The notes beneath the pieces were generated by a model. It was not told where the DNA came from. It did not search any database and worked only from the letters and a program-made list of their open reading frames with translations. A stretch of 64,000 nt of DNA from Polytrichum commune (taxonomy: Eukaryota; Streptophyta; Polytrichopsida; Polytrichales; Polytrichaceae): assembly GCA_950295325.1 (NCBI GenBank), contig OX485806.1:56417169-56481168 (forward strand), given 5' to 3'. Each line of letters begins with the position of its first letter. Position 1 is the first letter of the stretch. Positions 8,034 to 31,854 of the stretch are shown here, in pieces. A program made the translations under genes and the position numbers.

Positions 8034-8069
8034 AACACTATATTCGTTAATCGGAGACTTTTGAAAGTC
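8034..8069 (+). repeat. element A left terminal inverted repeat
   Basis: AACACTATATTCGTTAATCG followed by GAGACTTTT matches the reverse complement of 31819-31854 with a few mismatches. Homology between the two ends fades after about 36 bp. The flanking 4-bp direct repeat CTTG lies at 8030-8033 and 31855-31858. Confidence 0.85.
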
Positions 8070-8438
8070 TCAAAATTAAATATGCCCATAGTTTGGGATG
8101 CCAATATTGTGGGCATATAGAATATTGGGAACATCAAGAACATGATGATTTATAAATTCGCATGCGCAGAATATTATCATTACTAAAAATAGAAAGTCTC
8201 AATTACAATGAAAACGTGTAGTCCATGTAAAAAATAACAATGGACTTTTAAAAACAAATTGTTTTTGTCATTTTAGAGTTTAGGGTGCCCATCCCAAAAG
8301 TAAGGGTCTTATAAAGTTGGATGACACATCCCAAACATATGCCACAATGGAATGTGACAAGTCTACTAAGTCTATTAAAAACCAAGCTTGCTAAGCTCAC
8401 ATGCCTCTCGCCATTAACTCCCACCTAGTATGTTATGT
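8070..8438. other. element A left subterminal region, no gene
   Basis: AT-rich non-coding DNA between the left terminal repeat and the end of the DUF7869-like gene. It does not resemble the right subterminal region. Confidence 0.5.
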
Positions 8439-11400
8439 TTACCCATCTCCATCTTCCGCTTCATATCCATTGTCCGAGTCATTTTCCGTAGCTGCAATAC
8501 GTGCCAAATTGTCCTTGGCAAAATCTATATGTTTTTGGGGGATGGTCATTGATTCTGTTTTGGAACCTTTGCGCGGCTTCCAAGCACAAAGTATAGTATC
8601 CGTGTTTATCCAAACCGGTTTGTACGCTGAGTCCATTGTCCACTTGAAATTCTTTTTGGTGTCCCAACCTAAATAAGTGCGAAACACGTTCTAGTCTTTA
8701 GTGCTTGGACAGCAATATTCCACCTCAATTTGACGAAAGTTGGGGCTAGTTCGAACAAAATTGGGTGAAGACAATGCTTTCACCAACCAAATTGGTTTGG
8801 GATGCTCCTCATCCCCAGCTCGTACGAGCACCATATAACCTTCGTGGCAATCAACCCCAACACGAAACGACGGTGCCGGTCGATTGCGGGCAGGGCCAAC
8901 GTAATGTTCATCCATTGCGAACTCTTCACGAACGTCTCCATTGCTGTAAAACATGGTGTCGGACTCGACAACCGTCAAACGACTTTGTGGCCAAAACCCT
9001 TGTGTCAAAGTCGTACGGGTGTCGCCATCAACTGTCACTAGTGCCGAGCGAATGCGATCCCAATATGAAATCAATGGTTCATGAGTATCTCTAACACGTC
9101 TAGTGATGTCCTCCTCACACAACTCCTTCCAATATTCAATGAATCCGGATATGCCTTTGATGATCTCCGGTCCATTCCTCATGGGGTCGGGTTTACAAGG
9201 CTTTGGATCCCCATCCGGGAGCAAACATTTCCCATCATTGTCTTAACGCCATACTAGTATACCATCATCCGGGCCCCAATTAGGAGATGTGCACAAAAGC
9301 TTGAATTGCATGGCCGGGAGACCATCATCCCTTATATAGAATCGGAATTGTTGTGCTTTGGTGTGTCCCACCAAACGGTCCCCTCCTTTCAACATGTATG
9401 GCTTGATGAAGGCCTTAAAATCTGATACTTCCTCAATCATGTGCGGAATCACCGGCATATGGTACAAATCCATATACGATTTCATAAGAAGTGGTATGGT
9501 TGGAAAATCTTCCTCATGCAACTTCATGCTCCACCATCCGAAGGACGCATCAATGTCGTCATGTGTGTGTCCCACCATCAAGAAAGACACAAACATCTCC
9601 TTGAAGATACCTTTTGCCACAAGCAAAGACCAAAAACAAAATACGTATCGACATTTGTTGTCCTTTGCGCAATTATTTAGTTGAGCGTGGAGAGTTGGAG
9701 GCAAAGGTTTTGCACAAATAGGCTCTCCGGATGCTTCCGGCAATGACGACATACAAACCTCCTTACCCGCAAGCACTGCCTCATAAAGGGGTATCGTTCC
9801 ACACCCATCAAACAATGCACGTGAAGACTGTATCGGCGGTTTCTCTAGATCGCGCAAGAGTTTTGCAAATGAACCCACCGTGTGGTTAGCATCGCCAGGG
9901 TAAAAATCCAAACCATAATGGGCATATTTTACGTCCCCATGGCCGTGGGCAATCATACCTATAAAAAACAAACGATGGGTTAATCTCCAAAAAAATGAAG
10001 AGACCACTAAAGTAGAACATTTGGAAAAACCACCCAATAAAATAGGATTTAGGGTGAATATAGGTTTGTTATGCCATACAAACCTGTTACAGATACGGGT
10101 AACTTGAAAAGACCATCCGTGGCCTTTATTTTGCGAGCATAACAAGGGCATGCGGTCTTCGAGTGGTCCATTTTATCATGGATAATTGTTAGAACCTCTG
10201 TAGGCCTCATTATGGACAGAGCACGGTTCTTGTAGTAATCTTGACGGTGAGCCTCTTGGTTGTTGACATGTTCAATATATTTTGCCTGATGCCTGGTATG
10301 AGACTCAGTACCTATGGGGTGGGCATCTCGAAGACCTTTGTATTTTTCACACGTCGTGCACCTCGCGAACTTGTCACCAGGTCTCTTCAAAATATATTCT
10401 GCAAATTGTTGGTTTTTAATGACACTCAACTTGGACAAAGAAATGGGTCCACAACCCGCTATGCGACCCACTTCGTTGATATCCGTTAATATGTTCTTCC
10501 ATTTTGTGCCCGTGGGCAACACCATTTGAACAACTTTCTCCCCTGTCGACAATGTCCTCGTCTTGTGGGGCATTGCATCGGCCAATGGCACTATGATTGT
10601 GGAGAGTGTGGCGGAGGCTTGGAGTGTAGACTCCCTAGGTTTCTTTGTGCCCGCATTGCCATGAAATCGAGAGCAACGACCCAATGATGAATACTTTCTA
10701 AACCTATAAAAGTCAGCCTTGGAGACGGCATGAATGGTATACCATGCGGTACAACACACTTCCACATTCTCGAGGGTCACCACCTTATGGCCATGCGCAT
10801 CAAGGTGCAAATTTCTATGGACCTCGAGTTTCTTTGCTGACCTCATACGAAAATCCGCAAGCCACATCTCCTGATGCAAAGACTTAATTTTTTCGCGGGG
10901 GAAAAATTGGCAACATCTTTTTGCACAACAGTCCTTGGCGGACACGAGACGGATAGAATCGTCTCCTATTATGCGATCCCGTCGACGCTCTTTATCATCA
11001 GGAGGCGCGCGGCTAGAATCATATCTACGAAGGCCTTTGCGAGGACGAGTGTTGGAAACCAAGGTTGATTGAATTTGCTCATGCCGTCGCCCATGATCCC
11101 ACAAGCTTACTTCTTCATGGAGAACCCGACGAAGGGGCCATCGGCGCAATGAAAACCTCCAAGTCACAGGGACCTCAAGCGGAAGCAAAGAATTCAAGAT
11201 GCACACCCCAACATCATGGAGACCAAGGGGATTGGCATCAACACATTCACGGGGATCGGAGTTTCTACATATGCCATTTGCCACCGGGACACCTAGATCA
11301 TTAAGTAGAACCACATCAAGGCCCACCCATTTCTCCCTACCATATCCTGCACACAAAGGAATGTCATCGTCGTCCACACCGAAATGTAGAGAACTGTCGT

Positions 11401-11560
11401 GCACTTGAAAAGAATCATAAGAGGATGTACGCAATGACACACCCTCCACGTTTGTGTCGTCAAAACTACCCGCGGATGAGGATGAAATTTCACATTCACG
11501 AACGGAGGACGACATGTCTGTTGACAACTCCAGAGAACTACCATCCACATGCATCGCCAT
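8439..11560 (-). pseudogene. DUF7869-like putative transposase with in-frame stops
   Basis: Two coding exons read from 11560 to 10084 and 9958 to 8439, with donor ACAG|GTTTGT and acceptor TATAG|GTATGA; the join keeps frame. ATG at 11560 lies just after a good acceptor (TTTTTGTAG), and an upstream in-frame ATG at 11659 is possible. The product has a charged, Cys/His-containing N-terminal part (KFARCTTCEKYKGLR), then IIHDKMDHSK, an AHGHGD strand and VGHTHDDID, the signature of DUF7869-type RNase-H-fold proteins. The C-terminal ~80 residues end in an acidic tail. TAA at 9243-9245 and TAG at 8691-8693 interrupt an otherwise continuous frame, with no frameshift. It is divergent from the ParB-methyltransferase gene and is the only transposase-like gene of the element. 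Family fairly sure; transposase role inferred. Confidence 0.7.
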
Positions 11561-11837
11561 CCCACCTACAAAAACCAGAGGCACCAGGAGACCCAAACGT
11601 AAACTAAAAAATGACAGCCAACATGGACGACATTCAACGCAGCATGTCAAATCAGTCAAGTTCTAAATACCAACGTCCATTCGTATACGACTGCAATAGT
11701 GAATGTGCCTATGTGTGGAAGTCAATAACTTAGAAAGCCTTTCAAAGTGCTATCATATTGATTGCTGATGGAATTTACGAAAGTGCGTTCGTTAATTACA
11801 GACCATCGACCTGCATGAGCAGAACGTACAAGTTTTT

Positions 11838-12966
11838 TATACGAACGTACGTTCGTATAGCATAGGATGAATGAGTTTGGGTATAAAGGTTTATAAACGA
11901 GGAGTTTTTTCTGGAAACCAGTACAGAACTCGCATGTTGTATTAACGACCAAAATTTGTAAACCACAACTATCCCGAATTTCGAAGAGTATATCGGGACA
12001 AAACAGATAGCATGTTTACGAACGCACGTTCGTAAAACCACAGAAATCACTATCTGCAGGTGTACACCAGGAAATCATAGATGGCGTACTTACGAACGCA
12101 TGTTCGTAAATGAACAACCATTATATTTATAATTGCACATACATAAAAGCGTAGATGCCACATTTACGAACGCACGTTCGTAAATGAACCACCATTCGCA
12201 TTGCAAATGATTGATATACATGTGTCACAACGTCGACTCTGGTATACTTTGGTAGTTACGAACGCACGTTCGTAAACCCAAAACATTGCGTCCGATCCAA
12301 CTGTGCTACTGATGGGACCTCATACTTACGAACGCACGTTCGTAAAACCACAGCAACCCCCATCTGAATGTATAAACTAGGAAATCATAGATGGCATACT
12401 TACGAACGCACGTTCGTAAATGAACAACCATTATATTTATAATTGCACATACATAAAAACGTAGATGCCACATTTACGAACGCACGTTCGTAAATGAACC
12501 ACCATTCGCATTGCAAATGATTGATATACATGTGTCACAACGTCGACTCTGGTATACTTTGGTAGTTACGAACGCACGTTCGTAAACCCACAACATTGCG
12601 TCTGATCCAACTGTGCTATTGATGGGACCTCATACTTACAAACGCGCGTTCGTAAAACCACAGCAACCCCCATCTAAATGTATACACTAGGAAATCATAG
12701 ATGGCGTACTTACGAACGCACGTTCGTAAATGAACAACCATTATATTTATAATTGTACATACATAAAAGTGTAGATGCCACATTTACGAACGCACGTTCG
12801 TAAATGAACCACCATTCGCATTGCAAATGATTGACATACATATGTCACAACGTCGACTCAGGTATACTTTGGTAGTTATGAACGCACGTTTGTAAACCCA
12901 CATCATTCGGTCCGATCCAACTGTGCTAGTGATGGGACCTCATACTTACGAACGCGCGTTCGTAGG
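11838..12966. repeat. palindrome cluster 1 (14 copies) with ~310-bp higher-order repeat
   Basis: About fourteen copies of the A palindrome (TTTACGAACG, two free bases, CGTTCGTAAA), at roughly 70-100-bp spacing, lie upstream of the DUF7869-like gene. Most are exact in CGAACG/CGTTCG while the two central bases vary; copies near 12637 and 12875 carry arm mutations. From about 12015 a block of four palindromes with its spacers recurs about every 310 bp, three times (12015, 12327, 12637). The spacers are conserved, so the block was duplicated in tandem. Confidence 0.9.
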
Positions 12967-13489
12967 TATCCGGTATTTGCGGCGGTATATGCTATGTCCT
13001 GTACCTGTGAGGAATATGGTTGGCGAACAGGAGGGTGGTTTGAGCGCGCTCCGACGACTCTCTAGAGCGCACACCTCCCGTCAGCCGCAGAAAAGAGCTC
13101 TCCCGTGGGGGGAAAAGCTTTAAGTACCTCCCCCCGGTGGTTCAAAATCTCTTGGATGCTCTTTAAAAAGCGGATTCCCGCCCCCTACCTAGACCTACCA
13201 ATATGCCATTCCCGCCATGCCATTCCCGCCATGACCAATTATATAAATAGCATTTTGTATGCAACATGTATTGCATGCACGCACATTATATTGGAAAAAA
13301 ATGTAAATCGGTCGCACACCTTAGATGTAACCAAGGTCTGAACCACCAAATCTATATATATATATATACATATATATGTTTCATGATATTTAAATATTAT
13401 GAATTTTGACATAGAAGATTAAATGATTTGCAACCAAGGTGTGAAGTCCAAGTTAATTAACAATTCGTATCTAATACAATAATGGTATA
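12967..13489. other. intergenic DNA in element A
   Basis: No gene. It holds a short imperfect direct repeat (CCATTCCCGCCATG twice near 13205-13230) and a TA-dinucleotide tract at about 13354-13378. Confidence 0.4.
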
Positions 13490-13850
13490 TTTGGTAATTG
13501 GAGTCATTTAGTTGATTTTGAGACTATTTAAGAACGCACTTTAAATTTCAAATATGGACTTGTAATTACAAACTAAAACTTCCATACGTATAGTTTCCAA
13601 ATCGGATACACCTTATATTAGACATAAAGGCATTGAAGGGAACGAAATTATGAAACATAGTTACATGAAAATATTTGCACATGAAATGAGAAATAGACCC
13701 CAAAGGAAGGGAACATACCGAGAATTAATGGAACTTGAATCAATTCAATGGAAATACCATCCATAACTCTTCTTAACCTTGATATATAAAAGAAACTAAA
13801 TATAGAAACTAAATTTATATCACTCAATAAGGTGGGAGTGGGACTCATGG
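13490..13850 (+). repeat. internal inverted copy of the element A right end
   Basis: This segment aligns along about 350 bp with the reverse complement of 31500-31854. The best stretch is GATTTTGAGACTATTTAAG followed by A(G)ACGCAC, and matches such as ATGAAATGAGAAAT follow. Its left edge resembles the terminal repeat (TATATT, TAATT, GGAGTC). It therefore looks like a second, older terminal region lying inside element A and facing right, perhaps from a smaller relative or an internal duplication. Confidence 0.6.
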
Positions 13851-16079: not shown

Positions 16080-17576
16080 CTTCCCATCCCATCCATGTTA
16101 AGCGCGGTCCAGTGGAGGGATGCCACATGGCAGCCGCAGGGAAACCCTAGCGGTGCCGGCTACCTCCCCGCGCCCCTCCTCCTCATTCTCATTCCCAGCA
16201 GAGAGAGGAGGAGCGAAGTAGAGCGGAGCGAAGCTCTGGCGAAATTTAGAATGCTTTAGTTTATGTGTTTTAATTTTTCGCATCTTAGGAGTCGCATATT
16301 TCTCTTCAGTTTGGAACGAATCTGATTAAAGAGCTTCAGAGTTGTGCGCATCAGGAGTAGAGAGCTTGTGAGCTTGTGAGCTTGTGCAGGTTGCAAGCTT
16401 TCTTTTTTTTGTTGTTTTTGTGAGCTTCATAGTTGCAAGTTCGGAGAAGATAGCTTGCTCGGTGACAACTTGAAGTTTGTAGGCTTCAGAGTTGCAAGCT
16501 GTGTTTTAGTGGTTGTTTTTGTGAGCTTGATAGTTGCAAGCTTGGAAGAAGGAAGCTTGATGGTTGCAAGATTGCAATTTCAGTGCACATGAGTAGTTGC
16601 TAGGGTTTAGGTCTCATTCAATTGCATACAAGGAGTGTTCCAAAATTTTCAGCAAGAAGAAACAAGGTCAAGCACATTGCAATGTGAGTGAAGTAATCCT
16701 TCTAAACTCGCTTCCCAAACATTCTGAATTTCTGCATTGTTGAATTCCATGGGTTTTTTTTGTATTGTCAACTTCTTTAGCATGAGATCTGGCATGTTGT
16801 GTATGCTTTATGAATTCTGCACTGATTTGGTTTGAGCATCCTGGTTCTGATCCAGTGTTGCAGGCACGAACGCAAGCATTCTTCAGAGCTGAAGTGTATA
16901 CGTATAAGTATATGTATACATATCCATATACGTATAAGTACATGTACGGACAGAACGCTCTCAAGAAGTTCACATTTACGAACGAGCGTTCGTAAATGTG
17001 AACACAACCTGCAAACCAGAGCTGTTGTGACCCCTCCCAGTCCATATGTTTACAAACGCACGTTCGTAAACACGCAACCCATCCTCTTTTCATGTGTTTA
17101 CGAACGCGCGTTCGTAAACACCCACCCCTAAACCCCTAAACCCCTAAACCCCTAAATTTTACGAACGCACGTTCGTAAACAAGGAATACATAATAGTCCG
17201 AGTATTTACGAACGCACGTTCGTAAGCACATAATCCCTGCCCATACCTCATTATACGAACGAGCGTTCGTAAATGACTGCCTTGTGCCCGTCAAAAGATT
17301 TACGAACGTGCGTTCGTAAACACATGTTGAACAAATTGAAGATATAAATCAGTATAAGTCACAACAGAACAAAATAATATAAACACATTGGTATTTTAAA
17401 CACGCAAACATCTAAAGCCAAAAGAACAGCCTCTCAAACAGAACACATTTACGAACGTACGTTCGTAAATATCTCAACAACTATTGTTCAAAATATTTGA
17501 AAATTGTAGAACTCTGTCTGCTAAATACGAACGCTCGCTCGTAAATACGATCCTGACTACCTATGTTGTTTTGCAG
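16080..17576 (+). promoter_or_regulatory. putative promoter, leader and palindrome-bearing first intron of ParB-methyltransferase gene A
   Basis: A GC-rich block (16080-16250) is followed by a leader-like region with GAGCTTGTGA repeats (about 16355-16395). Nine A palindromes lie at 16975-17545, immediately before a strong acceptor (TTGCAG, 17571-17576) that abuts the first ATG. The layout of GC-rich block, palindrome-rich non-coding DNA, acceptor and ATG is repeated at gene B. Promoter and first intron are inferred; no transcript data are available. Confidence 0.45.
16975..17545. repeat. palindrome cluster 2 (nine copies, 5' intron)
   Basis: Nine A-type palindromes. The central dinucleotide varies between copies (AG, CA, GC, TG, TA, CT) while the arms stay constant. 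The last copy (17525-17545) has one arm altered. A CCCCTAAA run at 17125-17156 lies between copies. Confidence 0.9.
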
Positions 17577-18877
17577 ATGGCCATCCCTAACAGAAGCGCG
17601 ATAGAGATGTTCGGACAGAAGTTGGAGAGTGTCCCAGAGTCAGTGACAGACGACAATGGGAATGACAATTATGTCCCACAGGAGGACTTCATGAAAGAGT
17701 GGACGGCGCTTCCAGAGATGTTAGAGGATGGAACATTCGTCCTCCGCTTCGTCTACCAGCTCAATACCAACGACGATGAACCATAGCAGTGGGTGCAGAT
17801 GGCAACATGGGAGATAGATTCCGTGGAGGCACAGGGCAATTACGTAATCCTCAACATGAAGTACAACAATGACCACGTCAACGTGTTGCTGGACTACTTG
17901 GCATACACCTTCTCCCACAACTACGCGCAGATGCATGTTAAAGAGGAGGGAAAGCGTTTCGACCTGCCAAAACTCTTCACAAGATATAGCCTAAGTCAAC
18001 ATTGGACAGCAAGGAAATTGACCGCTTTGTGCTTGAACATCTCCAAGACCAACAGTGCTGTGTTGGAGGCCAACAAGAAGAAGAAGAGTCCTAAGAAACC
18101 AACGCAATCCGGTGCAAGCGGATCCAGAAGTGCTCCGCGGCCTGTTCCCACTGCGAGCAGATTGACCGAAGGTACGAGCAGACATTCCACTCCTTCGAAG
18201 AGAACGAGGGACGACATGGAGAAGTCTGGCGTAACTGAGGGCGCAGAGGTCAGTTCCCCGCTAGTCATGCCGGCTCCTTTGCAGAAAGGAGAGGTACCGG
18301 ACGGTGCGAAGGCCACGCGCATCCTTCGAGATTTTAACAGTTACTCGAAGGACTGCTGGCCAATGGGTCGATTTTTCACATTCAACGTCGACTGCTTCAA
18401 ATGTGAAAAATCTCCAAACAAGTGGGTAGTGAGGTCACGGGAGACCGGGGGTGTGAAGTGGCAGTTGAATAACCTCTACAACAACATCAAGTGGGACAGG
18501 CAAACAGTTTGTGTGATGCCAAAGGGCTTCACTACCCATCCCACGGAGAGGGATTGGCCACGAATCCTCAACGGAGATTTCTGGATCATCGACGGACAGC
18601 ACAGCTTGGAGGCTGCTAAGATCGTTCTGAATGACGACGCCTTCCAGCACGAGCTGAAGGGCGACTTGCGCTATTGGAAGTCGTTTCTGGTGTGGTCAGA
18701 CGACTGGGAGAAGCTCCGCAAAATATCAACGTATTTGAATAGCGGAAACAAGACGAAAGCTTTTGAGGCGTCCTGGGCTGCGAATATTGTTGCTGCAAGA
18801 GACGTCTGGGTGGCACACGGTAGCCCCCCTAAGGAGAGGGAGAACGCCAAGAAACCTTCTCCACAGTGGAAGGTAAG

Positions 18878-19007
18878 TTTACGAACGTGCGTTCGTAAAC
18901 ATCATCTCAATATTTCCTTTCTTGTTTGCATTTTACGAACGTGCGTTCGTAAACATCAGCTCAATATTTCCTTTCTTGTTTGCATTTTACGAACGTGCGT
19001 TCGTATT
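18878..19007. repeat. palindrome cluster 3 (three copies in an intron of gene A)
   Basis: Three identical palindromes, each followed by nearly the same ~32-bp spacer, fill the intron 18873-19040. The first starts only five bases after the donor GT. Confidence 0.9.
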
Positions 19008-20386
19008 TTACTCTTGACAGACATCCATTTTAATATGCAGGCGTTCTGCGACGCTATGGTGGACAAATTCTCCTCCATCGACATGAAGTCTATTTCAACC
19101 AAGTCGGTGCTGGAGTTGAAAGGTGAGCTCAGGCTCATATGCTGTACAACAGACACCTGGGATTTATGGACCCAGTTTTTTTTACTCCCACACGTCGGGA
19201 GATTTAACCAACCCCGACACGGAGGAGAAGTACAATGCCGTTGAGAACTTCGAGTGCCCCCCGCTGCTCAGGGAGTTCTTCAGACCCCTCCAAGGGCTGA
19301 CAAAATCGGAGTTGAAGCGATGCGCCGTGCACGCTCTAATGAAAACAAAGGGAAGGAAACTTCCCTATCCAAAAATATTTTTGAAGAGACCCAAGCACAA
19401 GCCCGGGACGTACTCCATCAAGGAGTGGTGCGAGCATCGAAAGCTGAAGACAGCAGCAATGAGGGAATTGAGCGCACTGGCACCTCAATACCAAATCTTC
19501 GACGTCGACGGCGACGTGAAGTGGAATCACTGGAAGGTGTTCAAGCAAGCCTTTAATATTAGAGGCCCCTCAATGCGAAGTCTGGTCAGGGAGCACGCCG
19601 CATCTTTGAAACTGAAGGGCAGCAAACGGACTAAGAAGTCCGAGACGGATGCCCAGGAGGTGGGCCTTTATAAAAAAAATTTGGAGAGGAAGAGGACAAC
19701 AACATTCGAAGGAGTGGCGAGGTTTTGCACTGTCACCACCGGCCTGGAGAGGACCACATTCTCTAAGTGGGATGGTAGCTTCACCAGGGCGGATGTTAGG
19801 GAGGACCGACGGGGATGCCCATTTGCCCTGATCGATTTCAGGAGCATCCCGGGTGCGTCGAGCCGCGGGACAAAGGACCTGCCATTCTACAACCCATTCA
19901 TGGCCAAGTTCATGGAGTACAAATCTCCTGCCATGAGGGAGCCCCACGTTTGGCTATGGATTGTCGAGCACAAGAGGCTGTCGGAAATTCTAGAACTGTA
20001 CGAGAAGACCATCAAGTTCGAGTACAGTATTTACCACAGCACCTATGTTCCCGCCAAGACAGAAGGGATCGTTGTAATCAACGAGGCCAGGGGAAACAAG
20101 CAGGTGGGAGCAGTCAGCCTCGTCTTCCTGACCTTCAACCAGCTAAGGGATGGGAGGGTCCCTATCAAGGCTAGCAATGTATTCAAGAAGATATACAACA
20201 TCCCGCACCCACCTCCCAAAGATCTATTCCAGGAGACGTTATTTACTGTCATTCCCGCAGTTGAACTCAGGCTGGAATTCTACATATCCATTCTCCAGAG
20301 TTTGACAACCCATGGAGAGACGGTGTACAGCGTATACGGGGGCAGCAAGTTTTTGTACGCGGCCATGGTAAGCCCACTCTCATTTG

Positions 20387-20560
20387 TTTACGAACGTTCG
20401 TTCGTAATGTTCATTGGTCTATTAGTCTTAGTAATACTAGTTATCATACTAAGCTTGACATTTACGAACGCACGTTCGTAAAGACCAAGGTCTGCACCTG
20501 AAATAATAGGTTAGACATGAAGTCATTGGGATTGCTGACTTTTACGAACGCACGTTCGTA
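20387..20560. repeat. palindrome cluster 4 (three copies in an intron of gene A)
   Basis: Palindromes at 20387-20408, about 20460-20481 and 20541-20560 lie within the intron that separates the cofactor-motif exon from the tail exon. Confidence 0.9.
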
Positions 20561-21533
20561 TTTGCTGACATGTTCTAGTTTATGCTACAGATGCTTGGCT
20601 TGGTCGTCAATTCCTATCTAGACGCAACCGACGAAAAGGAGTACAAGCGTCACAGGGCAAAGGCGTCAATGATGGACCTGGGTGGCCCCAGGACAGACTT
20701 CAGCTTGCCATCGGAGGAGGGAACGCCGGTAATTGACACGGATGATGACGAGCCCACCCCCTCAGCTAACCTTGCAGCGATCATCCAGTCGTTGGATGTC
20801 ACTCCTCTGCTGTTACTGCCGCCATCAAGACTGCCTTCAGACCCCCATGGGACTCCTGGGGGCTACACCGGGTCGTCTGCTGGGGCAACCCAAGATGTCG
20901 CCCCCGCAAGAGTATCTGGACTGGATCCCTTCGGCACACCTGGGGGATGCTCGACGTCGGGGTCTCCCAGGACCTCCTCGACCAACGGTCGCGTCCATCC
21001 TTGGACCTCTTCAGGAACACGAGGAGGAGGATGAAAAAGACGCCCTACGTGGAGCTGCCGCCGGGGGCAATTATCGATGTGTCCGACGAGAACGAGGGGG
21101 ACATGGACATCATGTCCGAGCTGGGGGTGGAGTACGACAGGAACAAGCGGGTGAAGGAGGAATCCCTCACAGTTGCCGAGCTCAACTCCAAGCTAGAGCA
21201 GAAGATGAAGGAGGAAATGGCGGCAGCGCAGGAGGAGAGCGCCAGACAAATGGCGAGGCTGGAGAAGGAGCTCAGGGATTCCGCCGCAAAGACAGACGCC
21301 ATCTTCGAGATGCTGAGAAGCATGCAGAGCATGTCTGCTCCGGTGCAACAGCCCTACCCCTATCCCCCTGTAGGACACCCCTCACAGTCCTCTTCGCCAG
21401 GAATGTACCAAGCAGGGCCATCCCACCCCCGAGCGCATCCAACACCGGCTGGAAGTCCCTTTCCACCTGAATTGGCAACAACGGCAGCGCCTTCGCACGA
21501 TGCGGTCTCTGCGGCGATAAGAGAGGACGAAGA

Positions 21534-22028
21534 TTTACGAATGCGCGTTTGTGAATCTTCAGGTGCGGCAGTCCTCACCCCTCCCCCATCAAGGGTAGGA
21601 CTGCCCTCAACTGCAGACAGGGTAGTTGCTAGGAGGGGCGATGACACTGCGGAACACACTGACATGCTCATTGTGGAGGACACGCAGGGGAGCCCCAATG
21701 ATGCGGCATGTATCGCGTGCATGGATGTGGAGAGCCCTGAGCATTGTTAGCATCCTTCTGCGCGGATGGAGGATGTCCGCATGGAGACTCTCGACCTGGG
21801 CGGGGACGAAGACGAAGCGGATCTCATCGAACAGACCCAGGCGTCCCAGGCTAGCCATGCACCAGAGGCCATGGAGGCAGAGGCAGCTGCTCTGATGGAG
21901 GTTACGAACGCGCGTTCGTTAATCGAAGAGGAGGGAACTGCTCGGTCCAGCGCCGCTGCCCCTCCCCCCGATGACGAGGTAACTCATCTCTGAGAATACC
22001 TCTCATTTTACGAACGCGCGTTCGTAAC
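21534..22028. repeat. palindrome copies in exon and 3' region of gene A
   Basis: A mutated copy (21534-21555) and a good copy (about 21902-21921) lie within open coding frame, the latter read as VTNARSL. A third copy (22007-22028) follows the last stop codon, about 80 bp before the gypsy-1 insertion. Confidence 0.85.
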
Positions 22029-22114: not shown

Positions 22115-23090
22115 TGTCGCAACCCTTGCTAGTCCCCCTTGACCATCTTGCCAATTTTCAATTCTAGCAAAGGTTACGAGTGCCTAACCCTTCGCATACC
22201 GCCATGCTAATGGTTAGCTCCTTTAACCCCGGACCAATAGTTCATAGGAGGGAACCAACCCTCCTACTTTGCTTTCGGGACTCACCCCTTAATCGGTAAC
22301 CCATTTCCCCAATGTGGACTTCCATCCATGGAAGTCCAATCCTATGTTGATCATCGCGTTGCCGGAGCAACACTACAACAACCCGAACCATACTAGGCAA
22401 CTATGGCCTCACAATGGGCCAATGCCCATGGAGGCCTTGCCGTTCGGCCTCGGGTGGGTGAGGCCACACCACCTCACCCATATAAGCCTCTAGGACTCTA
22501 CACGGAGCCCCTACCCCACCGCCAACCAACCTCTTGTCTCTCTACCAAGAGTTGGGGCCAAGTGGACATTTTCCCTTAGCTGCTGGGCCTAGAACCCCCC
22601 CAGCAGCTTCAGACCATCATAACTTCCTTGTATGATGTCTGATCATAACAACCAACCACTCCATCCTCATCTACGCTTCACGTAGATGCCGATGGACTCC
22701 TCGCTTGCCCCATTCGGGCAAGTCTTGAGGAAGTTATGCCTGTTTGAACCTTGGCAGTCCCGGGAATCACTCCCAGGCACTGCTGTACCAGGGCGCTGTC
22801 CCGGGACAGCGCCCCACTCAAATGGCCATAACTCCTAGCTCCCACCTCCGCTTGAGGTGATCTTGAGCATTCTAGAATCACCACGCCATGAGCTACGCAT
22901 AGCTCATGGCCTTACCCTCATGCCTCCTAGTCTTTGTGGGTGGGGAGGCGTTCCCAACGCCCGGGGCCCTCACCCACACTAGGATCACTTGGGCCCTCTC
23001 ACCAACGGCGCCACAAGTCCCGGGTGTCACTCCGGGGTCCCCCTTGTGCCCATGGTGTTTCGGGCACTCCTCATGGAGAGGTGCGCGACA
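22115..23090 (-). repeat. gypsy-1 3' LTR
   Basis: 976 bp with TG...CA ends. It is the 3' LTR because the element reads on the minus strand. The pyrimidine-rich plus-strand sequence just inside (23091-23106; GGTGGGGGTGAG on the minus strand) fits a polypurine tract. Confidence 0.9.
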
Positions 23091-24335
23091 CTCACCCCCA
23101 CCAAACGGAGTCGATGCCCTCATCGACTATACTCGTAGTCGGCACACCAATTCTCAAGTTGCCATCCTCTATGGTGCGGCATTGTGTTTACCTTAGGGCG
23201 CGACCCCCACAATGCATCTTCAAATTTGGCATAGTCCCAAAGGTGTCGTTCCTAGGTGGTCCGTTAGCGACCTTGGATCTCTCCTCCAAGGACCTAACCT
23301 ACACTAGACCCACCTACTTTGGGACTCACTTGGGTTGCCCCTCCTTTGGGGCCTCCCCCGTTAGGCTCCACTAGCCTAACGTGACACATCTAGGCGAGAC
23401 CTCAACGCTTCCACTAAGTTGTCTCGGTTGCAACTCCGAGATGGCTTTCCATTGTTAAGCCACGCCTCGATCGCACGGGGGTGATGCCAAGTCCCGCCCG
23501 ACTCGGTTCCCACTTTGCTCTTTCGAGACATGGGTTCATGACTCCCATGCGCCAACTCTCGTTAGCTCGCGGGTAGCACTTTTATGAGCACGCGCCATCA
23601 CCTTGTCCCCGCCCGGACAAGCCCACAATTAAGAAGTTTCTTGGTTTTATCCAAGGCCCCTCCAAGCCATGGCCCCCAATTACTCGGCTTACCCAACCTA
23701 GTTTGGCATATCTATTCCCCCTCTTCCATTAACCAAGCACAAGTACAAGACTAGGACCTCATCTCATACTTTTCTCTTTGCACCACTAAAGTTTGGACTT
23801 TATTCCCTCAAGCCAAAGAACAAGTTCATGTTGTGGAGCAATTAGCCTCGAAGCTAAGTGTGCTACTAGCGTCTCTCCCCCACTAAAGGAGATTGATGTC
23901 CTCATCAATGCCTACGCTTCATTTTATTGGAATCCTTAGCCTTAGTTTCTTCAAAGTGCTTTACCAATTCCTTGCCGTTCATCATGTCTCTTGCCGCGAC
24001 CCAAACGGCTTCTTTCTCATGGTATCCTCACCATTTCACCAAGTACTCCTTTGTACATTTTCTTTCATTTTCACTTGGGCTTCCTACACTTGAGGATGCC
24101 CTCTTACCTCATGTTCCAAATGACCTCCACAAGGTCGGGACGTGGCCTAATCACTTGCTTGTGATCGGGCCACAAGGTGTCGTGCTAAAATGACTTTCGT
24201 AATGAGACATGAAATGTCGGATGCACTTTGATATCCGGCGGTAATTCCAACTTATACATGTCCTTGAACACTTGTTCCACAATGGAAAATGAAGCTCCAA
24301 TTTTGGACATGAACTTTTGGAGCGAGGCCTTCCGG

Positions 24336-24863
24336 CTAAGTGAAGTTGTTCACATTCAACAACACCTTATGGCCCACCTCATTCTCCACTTCGCGTCTTC
24401 CGGCATTTACTAGCACTCCGTAGCACCTTCGGGCTTTCTCCACCAACAACTTGGTCATCTCCAAGACTTGTTTACCATCCTTGGCCAAGTCCTCACCATC
24501 TTGGTTAACCTCTAGTGTTGAATGTGCCCCCTCGAGAGCTAGGTTAATAGGTTGGAGCGCATCCACTCCATAAGCCACCACCAAAGACCACCCCTTGGTA
24601 GCCAAGTGCGTGGCTACATTGCAATTACACTCCGCTCGACCCACATAGTCCGCCCAATCTCCTTGGTCCGCCCCCACCAAGTTCCTCAAGTATTGCTTCA
24701 AGTCTCCATTCACACGCTTTGTTTTCCCATCCATTTGGGAATACACGGCCGTGCTAAACCTTAGTTTCAATACAACCTCCTTAGAGAAATGCATTGAAAA
24801 TGCACTTGTGAACTTTGGATCTTGATCCCACACAATCACTCTTGGCAACCCGTGGTGCCTCAA
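24336..24863 (-). pseudogene. gypsy-1 integrase core fragment
   Basis: The protein contains VIVWDQDPKFTSAF (second catalytic Asp region) and a later 'ADYVGRAECNCN' segment, as in Ty3/gypsy integrases. The zinc-binding part of the same integrase is at 25104-25322 (QSRVYVPQGKLRL, AGHRG). The two are out of frame and separated by a stop-rich stretch. Confidence 0.75.
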
Positions 24864-25103
24864 CCATCCTTTGAGAAAAGGCTATGCGGTCTCCAACGCG
24901 GTGGCGGTTCCCACAATCGGCACCATGTGTGCCAACTTGGCAAACCGCTCTACCATCAACAAGATGGCATCATACCCATGTGACTCCGGCAAACTTGTGA
25001 TCAAGTCCATGCACATACTATGCCATGGCGCCGACGGGATAGGCAACGGTTGCAAGAAACCGCCTTGCTTTTGGTAAGAGGCTCGGTTCTCTTGGCACTT
25101 TAT

Positions 25104-25322
25104 TCACGCCTTCACAAAGTGGGTTATATCCTCCTTTATGCACCGCCAATGGTACCTCCATGACACCATTCTATGGCGGTTTTTTCTTTCTCCTCTATGG
25201 CCGGCAATAGGACTATCACATTTTTCCTTCAAAACCGATAGCCTCAACTTGCCTTGAGGCACATACACCCGACTTTGCTTACACTTGAACAATCCGTCCA
25301 CCAACTTAGCCTCTTTGAGCAC
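25104..25322 (-). pseudogene. gypsy-1 integrase zinc-binding fragment
   Basis: Contains the pre-integrase segment with VYVPQGKLRL and AGHRG, here altered and truncated. The equivalent piece in gypsy-2 lies at about 35050-35310 and ends at the truncation point of that copy. Confidence 0.65.
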
Positions 25323-25584
25323 CTTGCTCTTGCGAAGCTCACCTAAAAGCTTTTGTGCCTCGGGGTAGTTAATTTACCCCTCCCGTATCTTGCATCACAA
25401 GTTTCCTTCGCCGGCACACATTAGCCACAAGGTTTGGATGGTTCTCATTGCTTGGAACTCATCCGGTCTACTTAGCGCATCCGGCACGACATTTCCATGG
25501 TCCGGTTTGTGGACCAAATCCACCTTCATAAGCGCCAAACTATCATGCCAACGCAATGATTTGGCACTCACTTGCGCTTGTATG

Positions 25585-25839
25585 TCAAAATACTTTTAGG
25601 ACACATTGTCCTTGTAGACCTTTACTTTGTACGACCCCAACTAGTGTCGCCACATCTTCAAGTAATGCACTACCGCAAAGAAGTTCTTTGTCATGAGTTG
25701 GTTGTCTTCTTTGACAACCATCGAGCTTCATGCTCGCATATGCAATGGCCATCCATCTTACACATAATCCATAATTGGCAAAGTTACTCGCCCCCGTATG
25801 CACCTCAAAAGGTTTGTCAAACTCCATGAACTTGAGCAC
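25585..25839 (-). pseudogene. gypsy-1 RNase H fragment
   Basis: Contains FEVHTGASNFA at the first RNase H strand (D replaced by H/T in this family copy) and PTHDKELL, the HDKE motif of plant gypsy RNase H. The next region downstream reads out of frame. Confidence 0.7.
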
Positions 25840-25899
25840 GGGCGGTGAAGAGGACTTGCTCTTAAGCTCCCCAAAGACTTGGTGACAAGGCTAGTCCCA

Positions 25900-26510
25900 C
25901 TGTTGGGATAGCCATTTCTTTCACAAGTCGGACAAGGTCTTACAACCATCGAGCTTCATGTTCCCATATGCAATGGCCATTTTTTTTTTACATCCACATC
26001 CGCCAAATAAAATCTCTCGCCCCCGTATGCACCTCAAAAGGTATGTCAAACTCCGCGAACTTGAGCACGGGCGGCAAAGAGAACTTCGTCTTAAGCTCCT
26101 CAATGGCTTGGTGGCACGGCTCATCCCACTCTTGGGATAGCCATTTCTTGCACAAGCCGGACAAAGTTCGACAACCATGGAGCTTAATGCTCTCATAAGC
26201 AATGGTCATCCATCTTGGATCAACATCCGCCAATGATAAAGTCCTTCGTCTCCATGTGCACCTCAAAATGCTTATGAAAACCCGGAAACTTAACCACATC
26301 TTGTGAAGGGAACTTGCTCTTGAGCTTCCCAAGGGCTTGGTGACAAGGCTCATCCCACTCTTGGAATAGCCATTTCCTCAATAAGTCGAGTAAGGCCCTA
26401 GCAACCTTAAAACAAATCTAGAATGAAGTGGTGGTAGTAGTTGGCTAGGCCAACAAATGACCTAAGCTCTTTTTTTTGAGTCAAGGACCAATTCTCCTCT
26501 TGGATTGCCT
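25900..26510 (-). repeat. ~228-bp tandem repeats of the RT-RNase H junction in gypsy-1
   Basis: The segment encoding SQEWDEPCHQ...LKFAEFDKPFEVHTGA recurs three times at a spacing of about 228 bp (near 25908, 26137 and 26365). At 26400-26510 the minus strand reads LRSFVGLANYYHHFI, the C-terminal end of a gypsy reverse transcriptase. Gypsy-2 has four units of the same repeat (33815-34730). Confidence 0.75.
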
Positions 26511-26692
26511 TGAAATTCTTCATGTTTGTCCACCAACTTCCTTTGTCACCACATGCCTCAAGAACTCAATTTCTTCTTGAGCAAAGTTGCAATTCACTTC
26601 TTGGCGGTAACATTTTGAGCAACACATTGCTGAATACATCCTTGTATCTCACCAACATCCCACAAGTATGGTTTGGGGGAGGCCCATCTTTC

Positions 26693-27082
26693 CTAGCCTC
26701 CCCATGAGTTCCTTGGAGTTGCTTCAATTGAACCACGACCATTATGTTTACCATATTTCATTTGGTCCATTAATACCAAATTCAACTTGGGTCCTCCTAC
26801 CATAGGAGTCCTTGTCAATTTGAACTTCAATTCTTTGCCATTATGACACATCATAATGCACCGCAAGCACACCGGCTTGCACCTCACATCTATCATGTGA
26901 GTTTCAAAGAAGGCGGCCTTCACAATGACATGCATTTCATCTATTTCACATGGTGTGAAATTTTGACAAAATTCCAATGTCCCACATTGAAAGGTTACAT
27001 GCATCGCGGCCTCCTTTGTCTCATGCGGTTCGCCCTTTCCAAACCACACCTTGGTGGGCTTCACCACTCTACCAATCGGCAA
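26693..27082 (-). pseudogene. gypsy-1 protease-like segment
   Basis: 129 residues with HVTFQCGTLEFCQNFTPC and ETHMIDVRCKPVCL, resembling the C-terminal part of a retropepsin-like domain of plant gypsy polyproteins. No DSG/DTG active site is visible. Only about 180 bp separate this segment from the C-terminal end of the reverse transcriptase, so the catalytic core with YxDD is absent. Confidence 0.55.
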
Positions 27083-28188
27083 ACCCCAACTCCCTTGTGA
27101 GCTTTGGGGTCATGAAAGAATGCCTTAACTCTTTGTCAACCCATGAGACAAGCCTCCCATTCATTTGAGCCTCAAGGTACAAAATACTTGGCCTCGGCTT
27201 AAGGCTACTAGCCTTGGCCACAAAGCCATCGTCCAACATTTGGTCCTCGGCAACTTGGCTTGGCTTGGTCCGCAAAGCCAACTTTAAACATTTCGTCCGC
27301 GGGACAAATTGGTTTGGTGCCACAAAACCAATTTCTAATAATTTGTCCGCAAAACAAACATGTTTTGCCTTGGTAGCACAAAGCCACCTTCCCACACTCC
27401 GTCCGCGGCACGAACATGAATTGCCTTGGTAGGACAAACCCACCTCCCAACATTCCGTCCGTGGCACAAGTATGATTTGCTTTGGAAGCATAAATCCACC
27501 TTTCAACATTCCGTCCGCGGCACCAACATGTTTTCCCTAAGTAAATTGGACCAAACAATTTGCACTCATTTCTTTGGGACCTACTTTGGCTAAAGCCACT
27601 TGTGGTGATGCGCCGCCGAACTTCTCTTTGGGACCATCGGCTTCAATGCTCTTGCAAACTTGATGGTCCCCACCATGTCCTCAAGAAGCCTTGGGGACTT
27701 AAACAAGGCATCCACCACCCGCTTTTAAAACCCCACCTAAAAGGATGCATTTCTTAGAAAGCTCGTCCGTTTTAGGTGTATCCTTCATTTGTGAGTTTGA
27801 ATAGCGCACATAGGCCTTAAGAGGCCCCGGGTGCCTCATTAGCACCAAATTCATTCCAACATCAATACCTTCCAAGCATTTCGAATTGGAATTTCAATCC
27901 AACATTAATGCCCTCCAAGGTTTTGGGTGCTTTCGGTATTCTAGGCCCCAAATGTTTTTTGAGGTTTGCGGGAGCCCTTTTCAAAGCACTCCTCCATTTT
28001 CCTTACCAAATCCACCCTCATGCCCACCATTGTCATTAGAACCAATGGTATGGTCAAATTCCACTTGCACATGATCCTTGTTCCAATTTGAGCCTCACAA
28101 CCTTTTGGAAACCCCGGGCTCACCATCATTACCCGCATTTTTGATAGCCATGTTTCCCTCAAAGTGCGAGCTCAAAACTTGGAACCCT
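27083..28188 (-). pseudogene. gypsy-1 gag-like region with internal repeats
   Basis: Short minus-strand frames only. Between about 27200 and 27560 a motif family (minus strand, PRTECWEVG- and ADEMFKVGF-type) repeats about every 63 bp, giving a degenerate tandem array. The segment next to the primer-binding site (27941-28162) matches the start of gypsy-2 (32364 onward). Confidence 0.45.
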
Positions 28189-28200
28189 GCTCTGATACCA
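28189..28200 (-). other. gypsy-1 primer-binding site (initiator tRNA-Met type)
   Basis: The minus strand reads TGGTATCAGAGC two bases inside the 5' LTR, the usual plant initiator-tRNA-Met primer site. The same sequence follows the gypsy-2 LTR at 32302-32313. Confidence 0.9.
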
Positions 28201-28202
28201 CG

Positions 28203-29178
28203 TGTCGCAACCCTTGCTAGTCCCCCTTGACCATCTTGCCAATTTTCAATTCTAGCAAAGGTTACGAGTGCCTAACCCTTCGCATACCGCCATGCTAATG
28301 GTTAGCTCCTTTAACCCCGGACCAATAGTTCATAGGAGGGAACCAACCCTCCTACTTTGCTTTCGGGACTCACCCCTTAATCGGTAACCCATTTCCCCAA
28401 TGTGGACTTCCATCCATGGAAGTCCAATCCTATGTTGATCATCGCGTTGCCGGAGCAACACTACAACAACCCGAACCATACTAGGCAACTATGGCCTCAC
28501 AATGGGCCAATGCCCATGGAGGCCTTGCCGTTCGGCCTCGGGTGGGTGAGGCCACACCACCTCACCCATATAAGCCTCTAGGACTCTACACGGAGCCCCT
28601 ACCCCACCGCCAACCAACCTCTTGTCTCTCTACCAAGAGTTGGGGCCAAGTGGACATTTTCCCTTAGCTGCTGGGCCTAGAACCCCCCCAGCAGCTTCAG
28701 ACCATCATAACTTCCTTGTATGATGTCTGATCATAACAACCAACCACTCCATCCTCATCTACGCTTCACGTAGATGCCGATGGACTCCTCGCTTGCCCCA
28801 TTCGGGCAAGTCTTGAGGAAGTTATGCCTGTTTGAACCTTGGCAGTCCCGGGAATCACTCCCAGGCACTGCTGTACCAGGGCGCTGTCCCGGGACAGCGC
28901 CCCACTCAAATGGCCATAACTCCTAGCTCCCACCTCCGCTTGAGGTGATCTTGAGCATTCTAGAATCACCACGCCATGAGCTACGCATAGCTCATGGCCT
29001 TACCCTCATGCCTCCTAGTCTTTGTGGGTGGGGAGGCGTTCCCAACGCCCGGGGCCCTCACCCACACTAGGATCACTTGGGCCCTCTCACCAACGGCGCC
29101 ACAAGTCCCGGGTGTCACTCCGGGGTCCCCCTTGTGCCCATGGTGTTTCGGGCACTCCTCATGGAGAGGTGCGCGACA
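28203..29178 (-). repeat. gypsy-1 5' LTR
   Basis: Same length and, as far as I can read, same sequence as 22115-23090. Reading frames inside the two LTRs translate identically. Confidence 0.9.
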
Positions 29179-29387
29179 CTAGGCCTGCCAGTTTTGTAGG
29201 ACAATTTTGTAGGACACGGAAATTGTGATAGATTATCACGTGAGACATTTGTAAATATTCAACGGATTTAATATATGAGCAGTTTATCTCTGCATCGGAT
29301 TTTCCCAATTTTGTGCATCGTCTATTCAATCCCTGTGTTGTGAATGGTCTGGCGTCTCTATAAACTCTTGCATGCCCCTTCCTCAAT

Positions 29388-29541
29388 CACGAACGCTCGT
29401 TCGTAAATGTGTGCGACCCAGTGTCCACCTCCTTCACGAACGAGCGTTCGTAGATTATGCCTGTAATCTCACTCACTCACGAACGTTCGTAAATGACGCG
29501 CGCCGCCACCCGCAGCCCTCATTCACGAACGCGCGTTCGGA
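29388..29541. repeat. palindrome cluster 5 (upstream of the FCP1-like gene)
   Basis: Four A-type palindromes with CACGAACG...CGTTCGTA arms, at about 29388, 29434, 29479 and 29523. The third has lost its two central bases. The arms begin CAC rather than TTTAC, a local variant. They lie in the leader of the phosphatase gene, just before the acceptor at 29651-29662. Confidence 0.85.
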
Positions 29542-29662
29542 AGTGTGCCTCTGAGCGCATTCGCATTGCACTCTAAACCCTCGCTCCCTCGTCATTCCCT
29601 TAATGCAATTTTAATTTATTTATTGGACCATATCCTTGAACTAGTTAAATTGTTAATCACAG

Positions 29663-30430
29663 GACCCCACGAAGTTAAATCGCAACCCGTCGGCGAGTGG
29701 GCCTCAGACCCATCACAAGCCCTTCCTGGTTCTTGACCTTAACGGGGTGTTGTGTCACACCCAACACATCCCCAAGGTCCCCACCCGTTCCTTCCGCCAA
29801 CCCGACGAGATGGACTACGACGGCCAGCTCGACACTCTGATAAACCGCAAGGCCGTCCGCGCCCGTCCAGGCGTGCGGGACTTCCTTCGAGAGGTGCTCG
29901 ACCTCTTTCACGTGGTCGTCTGGAGCTCCATGATCATGGAGAACACGGAGGCCATCGTCGACTTCCTCTTTCGTGGCCTCCCGAGACCATGCCTCGTCCT
30001 CGGCCAAGATGCGTGTGACGATCTAGTCGACGAGAAGGGGTTTCCCATGCCCAAGTTCGGCGGTCGAGGAGGGGGACAACAGTTTCTCAAGGTCCTCCGG
30101 TCCAGGTTGTGGCAAGGCATCCCCATTCTCGAGGGGGTCCCCCACGGACACTGGCCTACGCCGGAGAACACCCTCCTCGTCGACGACAGCCCAACGAAGA
30201 GCGTCCTCAATCCCCCGGGCACCGTCGTCTTCCCCGACACTTGGACCGGCGATAGGAAAGATACCTTTTTGGTCGATAAGCTAGCACCTTATCTTAGAAT
30301 GCTAGTGCTCCACCCCGGGAGCATCCCCGATTTTGTTAGGTCCAACCCCATCGGCAACGCCGCGCTTAGTCCCCGCGACAATGTATATAAGAGCATCGTG
30401 CGGCTTGCAAAAATCAATAAATTAATTTGA
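29663..30430 (+). CDS. FCP1/NIF-like HAD-fold phosphatase (element A cargo)
   Basis: The frame is open from a good acceptor (TTAATCACAG, ending 29662) to TGA at 30428-30430, about 255 residues. KPFLVLDLNGVLCHT (from about 29717) is the FCP1/NIF nucleophile motif, with Asn in place of the second Asp of DxDx(T/V), as also seen in the relic at 1933. VVVWSSM and LLVDDSPTK then follow as the second and third HAD motifs, with an NPPGTVVFP stretch typical of the family. The family dephosphorylates phosphoserine, classically the RNA polymerase II tail; loss of the general-acid Asp may weaken catalysis. A first exon must lie upstream, perhaps with ATG near 29372, but I could not fix it. It is the only cargo gene with no internal stop. 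Confidence 0.7.
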   Translation, partial: DPTKLNRNPSASGPQTHHKPFLVLDLNGVLCHTQHIPKVPTRSFRQPDEMDYDGQLDTLINRKAVRARPGVRDFLREVLDLFHVVVWSSMIMENTEAIVDFLFRGLPRPCLVLGQDACDDLVDEKGFPMPKFGGRGGGQQFLKVLRSRLWQGIPILEGVPHGHWPTPENTLLVDDSPTKSVLNPPGTVVFPDTWTGDRKDTFLVDKLAPYLRMLVLHPGSIPDFVRSNPIGNAALSPRDNVYKSIVRLAKINKLI

Positions 30431-30567
30431 ATTGCCACCGTGTATTTGTTTGTTTCCATGTGGATCACATTTCTAATTCCTTTTTTGGATGCCTTTTGGT
30501 CGTGTTTGTTGTTGTTGTTGTTGTTGTTGTTGACAGTTTGCCCCGCCTTGCGACGCCCCCATCCTCG

Positions 30568-31502
30568 ATGGCCCTTTCATTCCCCGCTCGGCCCCTCCCT
30601 CCCCCTCGCGCGACGCGTCGAACTTCCGAATGCCATCCCTCTACTAATTCTCAGCGGTGGACGCGGCGTCGGCCGTGGATTACTCCCGTGACGTCGGGAT
30701 CGAAGACGGCGTCGTCAATAGTCCTCCCCCCAAACTCCACTTGCGCACGCGCGCACCCTCGCCCTCTCCCCTCTCCAAAGAGAAACGAACTCTCGTTCGT
30801 TTGGCTACGACGTCAAGGGAGGACGGTGTCCCTCGTCGCGGTCCGAGCCGGCGTCTCCGCATGGAAGCCGCCCCGCAGGAAGCCCTCCCCTCCGCCTCCA
30901 CTCCTCCCCCTGCCAACTCCTCCCCCTGCCAACTCCTCCCACGTCGCTCGTCCCCCTTGCATTGATCCCCCCGTCAACGGCCCGAAAGCCAAGGTGCAAT
31001 TTCTTTTACTCCCCTACCACATTTCCCGCCGTTGGTTTACTTGTCTCCCATGTTTACATTCCCTTGTGGCCGCGATGTTTACGAACATACATCCCAAACC
31101 GCCGTCGTTTCCCCCACTCCGTTCAAGCCTTTGATTTAATCCCACTAAATTTTCTTTCTTTCGCAGGTGGCTACTCGCTCGATGGGTGCCCATCCCTCCT
31201 CGACGTCGTCCTTGGATAGGCTGGCACCCAAGGCCACGTCCTCCGATTCCGATCGTTGTTTGGCCGTCCGGCGAACCACGAGACAATCTGTCTCCCAAAC
31301 GCAATCGTATTCCACTCACCATACCACTTCGTACAATTCGGGAGCGCGTCCGGATAATATTATATGGAAGAACGGCACATATTCCGGGTCCGTCAACAGT
31401 AATGGTTATAGCCGCGGGCCGGAGATTTTTAGGGCCATGGAGGCTGCCAAAAAAAAAAAGATGGCCGCGACAAAAAATAGTGGGACGGACTCCCTAAACT
31501 AA
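30568..31502 (+). CDS. small basic two-exon gene next to the right end
   Basis: Exon 1 30568-30993 (ATG to AAG|GTGCAA) and exon 2 31167-31502 (acceptor TTTCGCAG, stop TAA) join in phase and would encode about 253 residues. The first part is Pro/Arg/Ser-rich and low-complexity, which weakens the call. The second part is Ser/Thr-rich and ends in a Lys cluster (AAKKKKM). No known domain is recognised. A variant palindrome (AAACGAAC, TCTC, GTTCGTTT; 30783-30802) lies within exon 1. It sits between the phosphatase gene and the right terminal repeat. It could also be untranslated or alternative 3' sequence. Confidence 0.35.
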
Positions 31503-31818
31503 AAATAGGTTCAAGGCTATTAGATATTATCTATGACTTTAGATTTTATTTCGTGTTCTCCAAGACATTGATGGTTTTTCCATTATCCTTGTATTTCATT
31601 CCAATTGAATTCATTCAATTTCCATTCATCATCCGTATCTTGCCTTCCATTCATGACCATTTCTCATTTCATACGCCAATATTTTCATGTATGCTTCACA
31701 TTTTCGTTCAATTCCATGCTTTTATGTCTTATTATTGTTTCCAACCCTATACATTTCCGAGTTTTAGTTCGTAATTACTAGTTCTTATTTGAAATGTGCG
31801 TCCTTAAATAGTCTCAAA
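31503..31818. other. element A right subterminal region
   Basis: Non-coding, AT-rich. Its reverse complement aligns with 13490-13850, as described for that repeat. Confidence 0.55.
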
Positions 31819-31854
31819 ATCATCTAAAAGTCTCTAATTAATGAATATAGTGTT
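31819..31854 (-). repeat. element A right terminal inverted repeat
   Basis: Ends in GAATATAGTGTT, the reverse complement of the left end, and is followed directly by CTTG and the remainder of the split LTR. Confidence 0.85.

Follow-up and report, generated by a model that had tools for sequence, protein, structure and literature searches.

Sola elements are DNA transposons with a DDD transposase, 4-bp target duplications and terminal inverted repeats (TIRs) of variable length (11-1124 bp); most are 2-9 kb long, some exceed 15 kb, and the superfamily is present in the moss Physcomitrella (PMC10741241; for this and the other published systems we refer to the available portions of the cited papers). 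A giant member, the 21.5-kb Sola-1 transposon Sola1-1_Ec32 of the brown alga Ectocarpus, encodes an 1104-aa ParB-methyltransferase on the strand opposite to its transposase. A role in binding its own element and modifying it was proposed for this protein, with no binding sites named in the available text, and green and red algae are cited there for similar proteins (PMC12477816). Here we analyze a transposon at positions 8034-31854 of a 64,000-nucleotide stretch of DNA from the moss Polytrichum commune (contig OX485806.1, positions 56,417,169 to 56,481,168; hereafter the window). We consider it probable, though well short of certain, that this is a decayed giant Sola-type cut-and-paste transposon whose ParB-methyltransferase binds clade-specific palindromes to regulate or mark the element.

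Compared by description, the moss element resembles Sola1-1_Ec32 in being a giant DNA transposon with a ParB-like and DNA methyltransferase accessory gene opposite to the transposase strand; it differs in its phosphatase gene, its palindromic arrays and the apparent exchange of its accessory gene, none of which is mentioned in the available text on the alga (PMC12477816). Sola2 elements with Fanzor1 share 4-bp duplications, TIRs (there of 12-13 bp) and the pairing of a transposase with an accessory protein, but that protein is another one (PMC3627910). Fungal DNA transposons with TET/JBP dioxygenases likewise carry a cargo protein that acts on DNA modification, but the enzyme and the transposon superfamilies are different (PMC12730594). 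The original prediction was aware of no plant transposon described with this gene set; with a ParB-methyltransferase already published for a giant Sola-1 element in the available Ectocarpus text (PMC12477816), it is not wholly new. The palindromic site set, which does not figure in the original prediction, appears to be the new part, the ParB-methyltransferase cargo being already known. Searches of the open-licence literature, which were not aimed at palindromic arrays, returned no report of site arrays, a phosphatase partner or cassette exchange in the text available.

The element, its ends and its relatives

The left end of the element starts at 8034 with AACACTATATTC and the inverted counterpart finishes at 31854, the two 29-bp TIRs (8034-8062, + strand; 31826-31854, - strand) being identical at 26 of 29 bp. 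They are bordered by copies of CTTG at 8030-8033 and 31855-31858, beyond which lie the left half (7501-8033, + strand) and the right half (31859-32298, + strand) of a long terminal repeat (LTR). With one CTTG removed, the joined flanks align without a break to a complete LTR elsewhere in the window (identity at 892 of 974 aligned bases; 979 columns and 91.3% by blastn), and the junction reads acttg followed by gccccaactc; the site before insertion is therefore readable. An exact-ended DNA transposon, with two flanking LTR halves that add up to one LTR, had been predicted, and both claims are borne out; an origin of the halves from different LTR copies is ruled out by the unbroken alignment.

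With respect to size, the predicted 24-kb span holds, but the native element measures only ~16.75 kb, near the size of its relatives. The rest is a nested LTR retrotransposon of 7064 bp (22115-29178, - strand), not part of the transposon, with a 5-bp duplication (CTAGG) and identical LTRs that fall inside a 979-bp identical match. This insert is very young, and it and the insertion target are members of one LTR family.

Searches of the host genome (408 Mb, 64 contigs) located the first 12 bp of the TIR 873 + 899 times, against 152 + 171 for a reversed control, an abundance that is not due to chance. Inward-facing pairs 7.5-18 kb apart, chosen among 100 ends listed on contig 1, gave 11 further elements (A, B, C, D, E, F, G, H, I, L and M), which share these 12 bp at their ends and with the window copy (W) form a set of 12. 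Exact 4-bp duplications border ten of them (CTTG, AAGT, CATA, ATAA, GAAG, CTAT, TCAT, GTAA, TAAA and TATA), H and M being the two without one. A DUF7869 gene on one strand is followed by the ParB-methyltransferase and an FCP1-like phosphatase on the other in ten of the 12, so the recurrence of ends, duplications and gene order that the prediction proposed looking for is indeed present. This count includes D, in which most of the methyltransferase exon and intron 2 are lost; M and B, both shorter, are derivatives that lack part of the gene set. The gene order recurs in nine elements besides W, which span 14.4-18.1 kb, all above 10 kb.

Beyond this set, DUF7869 exceeds its cut-off at no fewer than 150 genome places (all 150 scored, of 1491 candidates, pass), and scoring of the methyltransferase exon covers at least 93 places, of 1130 candidates. 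On contig 1 below 31.3 Mb, seven of nine scored DUF7869 places sit 1.3-1.5 kb from a listed TIR, six of these belonging to elements already in the set; those at 2,412,879 and 19,880,422 have no listed TIR at that distance. Named organisms among the 103 homologs listed are the mosses Ceratodon and Physcomitrium only.

The DUF7869 gene occupies exon 1 at 10082-11560 and exon 2 at 8442-9959 (both - strand; 85.6% and 92.9% to relative H by tblastn), and matches Pfam PF25273, assigned on exon 2, at 134 bits against a cut-off of 26. Its modelled fold is that of a DDD transposase with an RNase H fold and conserved residues. Foldseek gave no match at E <= 0.001 for the modelled folds, so that statements on fold rest mainly on VIA-align; a PDB sequence search using the transposase profile returned nothing significant, and no paper under the name DUF7869 was found in the open-licence literature. 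The earlier proposal of a cut-and-paste transposase thus gains support from the model, while its activity is something we infer. By this model, together with the 4-bp duplications and ~29-bp TIRs, the element fits the Sola superfamily, to which it was matched by description; its TIR length is in range, whereas its native size lies above the 2-9 kb of most members (available text of PMC10741241). The window copy itself is broken: the DUF7869 gene has two in-frame stops (9243-9245 and 8691-8693), and the frame of the ParB-methyltransferase gene is interrupted at two points. Both transposase exons are open in, for example, E and H.

Several further observations concern the ends, the target and the transposase family. 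At and just inside the left TIR (window 8034-8100) lies a GAGACTTT...AAAGTCTC-type inverted repeat that recurs in several subfamilies, in place of which the right end has repeated GAGAC; these are possible transposase-binding sites. Directly next to the target LTR is a 139-bp tandem array of 11.5 copies (5899-7507), and a similar unit forms a shorter array at 35330-35629. A further LTR copy of the target family, interrupted by ~300 bp of other sequence, lies at 48812-50105, and an integrase fragment from another LTR retrotransposon, under the Pfam cut-off, at 41621-42256. A second large DUF7869 family (L018-L038), mostly with open frames of 677-692 aa, has two other conserved palindromes per locus; its 3.4-kb loci, which may stop short of the ends, lack both the AACACTATATTC end (at <=2 mismatches) and repeated palindromes. 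A scan of bacterial and archaeal genomes found a single DUF7869 frame (L059:595-3438; 947 aa, open, 48% identical to the query, P0049 first) on a 4.3-kb contig of a cyanobacterial metagenome-assembled genome, which is probably eukaryotic contamination. A viral origin was also considered and set aside, as searches of IMG/VR returned no relative of the transposase or of the ParB-methyltransferase homolog P0105 (the latter search reaching close relatives only).

The ParB-methyltransferase gene and its phosphatase partner

The ParB-methyltransferase gene runs on the + strand, opposite to the transposase, as a ParB-fold exon with a DGQHS motif (17577-18872; 75.7% to H), a methyltransferase-like exon (19041-20367; frame break near 19177-19181) and a C-terminal exon (20591-21990; frame break near 20971), the last containing two weak palindromic sites (21534 and 21901). 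Folds were assigned on P0105, in which both domains lie in one open frame. The P0105 model contains the ParB N-terminal fold, for which VIA-align matches ParB, Noc and KorB structures, and its methyltransferase part gives a moderate fold match to beta-class DNA methyltransferases. Both parts are recognised by fold only, with no Pfam match over the cut-off; the DGQH box of P0105 gives sub-cut-off matches to DUF6551 (E 0.03) and DUF1015 (E 0.043), and searches of PHROGs, NCBIfam and PDB sequences with pieces of the protein returned nothing significant (best PDB E 0.29). ParB proteins usually carry a CTP-binding motif. Its usual form is replaced by DGQHS in six pattern-matched fragments and in the ParB exons of A and E.

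Downstream, also on the + strand, lies the NIF / FCP1-like phosphatase gene (29651-30427; PF03031, 58.8 bits against a cut-off of 21.8). The motif of such phosphatases takes the form DxDx; here it reads DLNGVL in all ten copies, the second aspartate being replaced by asparagine. A small basic reading frame follows (30536-31490, + strand), weakly conserved (53-67% to H) and with its pieces in different frames. The predicted set of DUF7869, ParB-methyltransferase and FCP1-like phosphatase genes is thereby confirmed, with the reservation that the methyltransferase part shows a moderate fold match and no DPPY/W.

In terms of catalysis, beta-class DNA N6-adenine methyltransferases usually carry DPPY or DPPW as their catalytic motif. 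None of the 15 fragments covering its place, as located from the model, contains it, and (D/Y)FRxxP stands there instead; the methyltransferase-like domain is therefore more likely a module that binds nucleic acid or S-adenosylmethionine (SAM) than an ordinary N6-adenine methylase. That the protein is nevertheless an active adenine or cytosine methylase marking the element, as proposed for Ectocarpus (available text of PMC12477816), strikes us as rather unlikely given this replacement in 15 of 15 fragments, even though the moderate fold match and the low ratios of nonsynonymous to synonymous divergence (dN/dS) would suit it; such an activity would be compatible with palindrome binding.

Excluding pairs with saturated or zero dS, for which no ratio was taken, most dN/dS values lie at 0.02-0.40 for all genes. 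Between H and W they are 0.09 for transposase exon 1, 0.06 for ParB, 0.20 for the methyltransferase and 0.19 for the phosphatase. Values of 0.43-1.59 come from twelve pairs, most of them close and with few changes.

Divergence is uneven along the elements. Between A, D and F on one side and E and G on the other, the transposases are close (exon 1 dS 0.16-0.17), as are the phosphatases (dS ~0.2), while the ParB exons are saturated and the methyltransferase exons reach a dS of ~2.5. D and E are 89-99% identical over the first 3.5 kb and 58-79% over the next 8.5 kb; identity is then 85% in a single 500-bp step and 93-95% across the final ~1.9 kb. We read this profile as the ParB-methyltransferase block having been exchanged along with its site arrays. 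To judge from the sequences, gene and sites look as if exchanged as one block between otherwise similar elements, the mechanism being left aside.

Palindromic words and their placement

Clustered palindromic sites in cis, as in systems of the ParB-parS type, are present throughout the set. Perfect palindromes number 34 in the window element (nested insert excluded) against 2-4 after shuffling, 16 in L against 0-4, and 8 in M, the smallest count, against 0-1. Each clade has one palindromic word whose 2-nt centre is free: TTTACGAACG-NN-CGTTCGTAAA in W, H, M and B, TTTACGGACG-NN-CGTCCGTAAA in L, and TTTGGGTCG-NN-CGACCCAAA in A, C, D, E, F, G and I, with 6-43 matches to its own word per element at <=3 mismatches. 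At the same threshold the TTTGGGTCG word is absent from W, H, M, B and L, and the TTTACGAACG and TTTACGGACG words, which differ by two bases and so overlap, are absent from A, C, D, E, F, G and I. The window holds 36 sites within the element and none outside (0.00 expected from 100 shuffles). Exact genome sites of two of the words total 12,640, with 2909 for the TTTACGAACG word and 9731 for the TTTGGGTCG word, and reversed controls give 0 and 0. Among the first 100 places listed for the TTTGGGTCG word, elements A and C contain 63, a further 18 are situated 5.7-16 kb downstream of a TIR at 1,174,918, and 19 were not placed. Arms deviate from the word by 0.7-6.8% per base (the sites having been chosen at <=3 mismatches), and the 12-bp flanks are 29-45% alike.

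The word is constant at ParB exon identities of >=73%; at 42-43%, the values for L compared with H and W, each half-site has one base changed, and at 32-38% the word is a different one. So far as these comparisons go, the word changes as ParB diverges. The transposase clades split in the same way as the words. The pairing of word and ParB therefore rests also on the introns, the exchanged block and the ParB fold.

In the window, 15 sites lie upstream of the transposase gene (11774-12966, some multiplied by a 310-bp tandem repeat at 12016-12964) and nine upstream of the ParB-methyltransferase gene (16975-17545). Three are in its intron 1 (18878-19007), three in intron 2 (20387-20562) and three upstream of the phosphatase gene (29386-29543), with one more at 22007-22028, before the nested element. 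Placement was counted over 326 sites in the ten elements with mapped genes, with expectations from compartment length; compartment boundaries were set with the site lists of W, H, E and L already known. Up to 1.5 kb upstream of the transposase gene lie 137 sites (29.6 expected) and up to 1 kb upstream of the ParB-methyltransferase gene 79 (19.7 expected), though F has none in the latter interval. Intron 1 contains 37 (4.9 expected), intron 2 contains 29 (3.9) and the interval from ParB-methyltransferase to phosphatase another 29 (18.4). The middle spacer has three (61.4 expected), the ParB, methyltransferase, tail and phosphatase exons combined have four (85.2), the right end seven (28.7), and the transposase gene with the left end one (74.1). 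When tandem duplicates in eight of the ten elements are reduced to one site for each flank type, 130 of 252 sites remain, 118 of them in the five non-coding compartments against 30 expected. Much the same compartments are occupied in clades with different words.

It seems unlikely to us that the palindromes serve the DUF7869 transposase or a host factor as binding sites, with the ParB-methyltransferase acting elsewhere. The largest site group does lie directly upstream of the transposase gene, and the correlation of transposase clades with words noted above fits this as well. The words are, however, absent from the 60-bp ends, with few sites in the right-end compartment; both ParB-methyltransferase introns are occupied in all ten elements, except for the lost intron 2 of D; and the exchanged block contains the ParB-methyltransferase and most of its sites without the transposase exons.

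Self-spreading hairpin repeats, or by-products of tandem arrays with no protein partner, could account for the tandem nature of several arrays (units of 310 bp and 54 bp in the window, regular spacing of 40 bp and 36 bp in E) and for centre dinucleotides that are biased by subfamily. Such an origin is nonetheless improbable, as arms are near-identical though flanks differ, clades with different words have sites in the same compartments, and the word of clade L is altered symmetrically in both arms. It also sits poorly with the confinement of all 36 window matches to the element and with the clustering of listed TTTGGGTCG places in A and C (63) and downstream of a TIR (18).

Finally, an accidental composite, with the TIRs of one element around unrelated genes, might be imagined from the nested LTR element and decayed frames of the window copy, but is highly improbable and contradicted by the recurrence, in ten elements, of one gene order within these ends and by the low dN/dS of the genes.

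A proposed cassette for self-recognition

Repeated palindromic sites within the element that encodes their binding protein are characteristic of ParB-parS and KorB operator systems. The moss element shares with these the ParB N-terminal fold and the repeated palindromes, and differs in its DGQHS box in place of the usual CTP motif, its attached methyltransferase-like domain and its residence in a eukaryotic transposon. Palindromes beside the element's own genes suggest that it may recognise and control its own DNA.

Under the reading we favour, with a ParB-methyltransferase that binds clade-specific palindromes, the DUF7869 protein would act on the TIRs and make the 4-bp duplications; ends and duplications are seen directly, and the fold is predicted. 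The ParB-methyltransferase would bind the palindromes of its clade (TTTACGAACG-NN-CGTTCGTAAA, TTTACGGACG-NN-CGTCCGTAAA or TTTGGGTCG-NN-CGACCCAAA) and, by analogy, might load there in the manner of ParB at parS or of KorB at its operators. Once loaded, it could regulate transposase expression or mark the element as self, probably without ordinary DPPY catalysis. Protein and sites may move between elements as one cassette, the pattern being evident and the mechanism a proposal.

Two short derivatives keep sites, 43 over 9.5 kb in B (L041) and 6 over 7.6 kb in M (L058), a retention that would be explained if the sites act in cis.

A more tentative extension, which could readily prove wrong, is plasmid-like self-recognition in eukaryotic transposons, in which an exchangeable cassette of ParB-methyltransferase and clade-specific palindromes, the latter situated at promoters and introns of the element, would set which elements are co-regulated and the methyltransferase domain would have turned from catalysis to reading or clamping. 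Plasmid incompatibility groups and the specificity of restriction-modification systems offer a parallel to the choice of co-regulated elements by such a cassette.

The thousands of candidate sites, together with predictions of which protein binds which word, make the function testable by simple binding assays. If the proposal is true, it would bring the logic of bacterial plasmid control into plant transposon biology, and it would suggest how large multigene elements coordinate expression or tell self from non-self.

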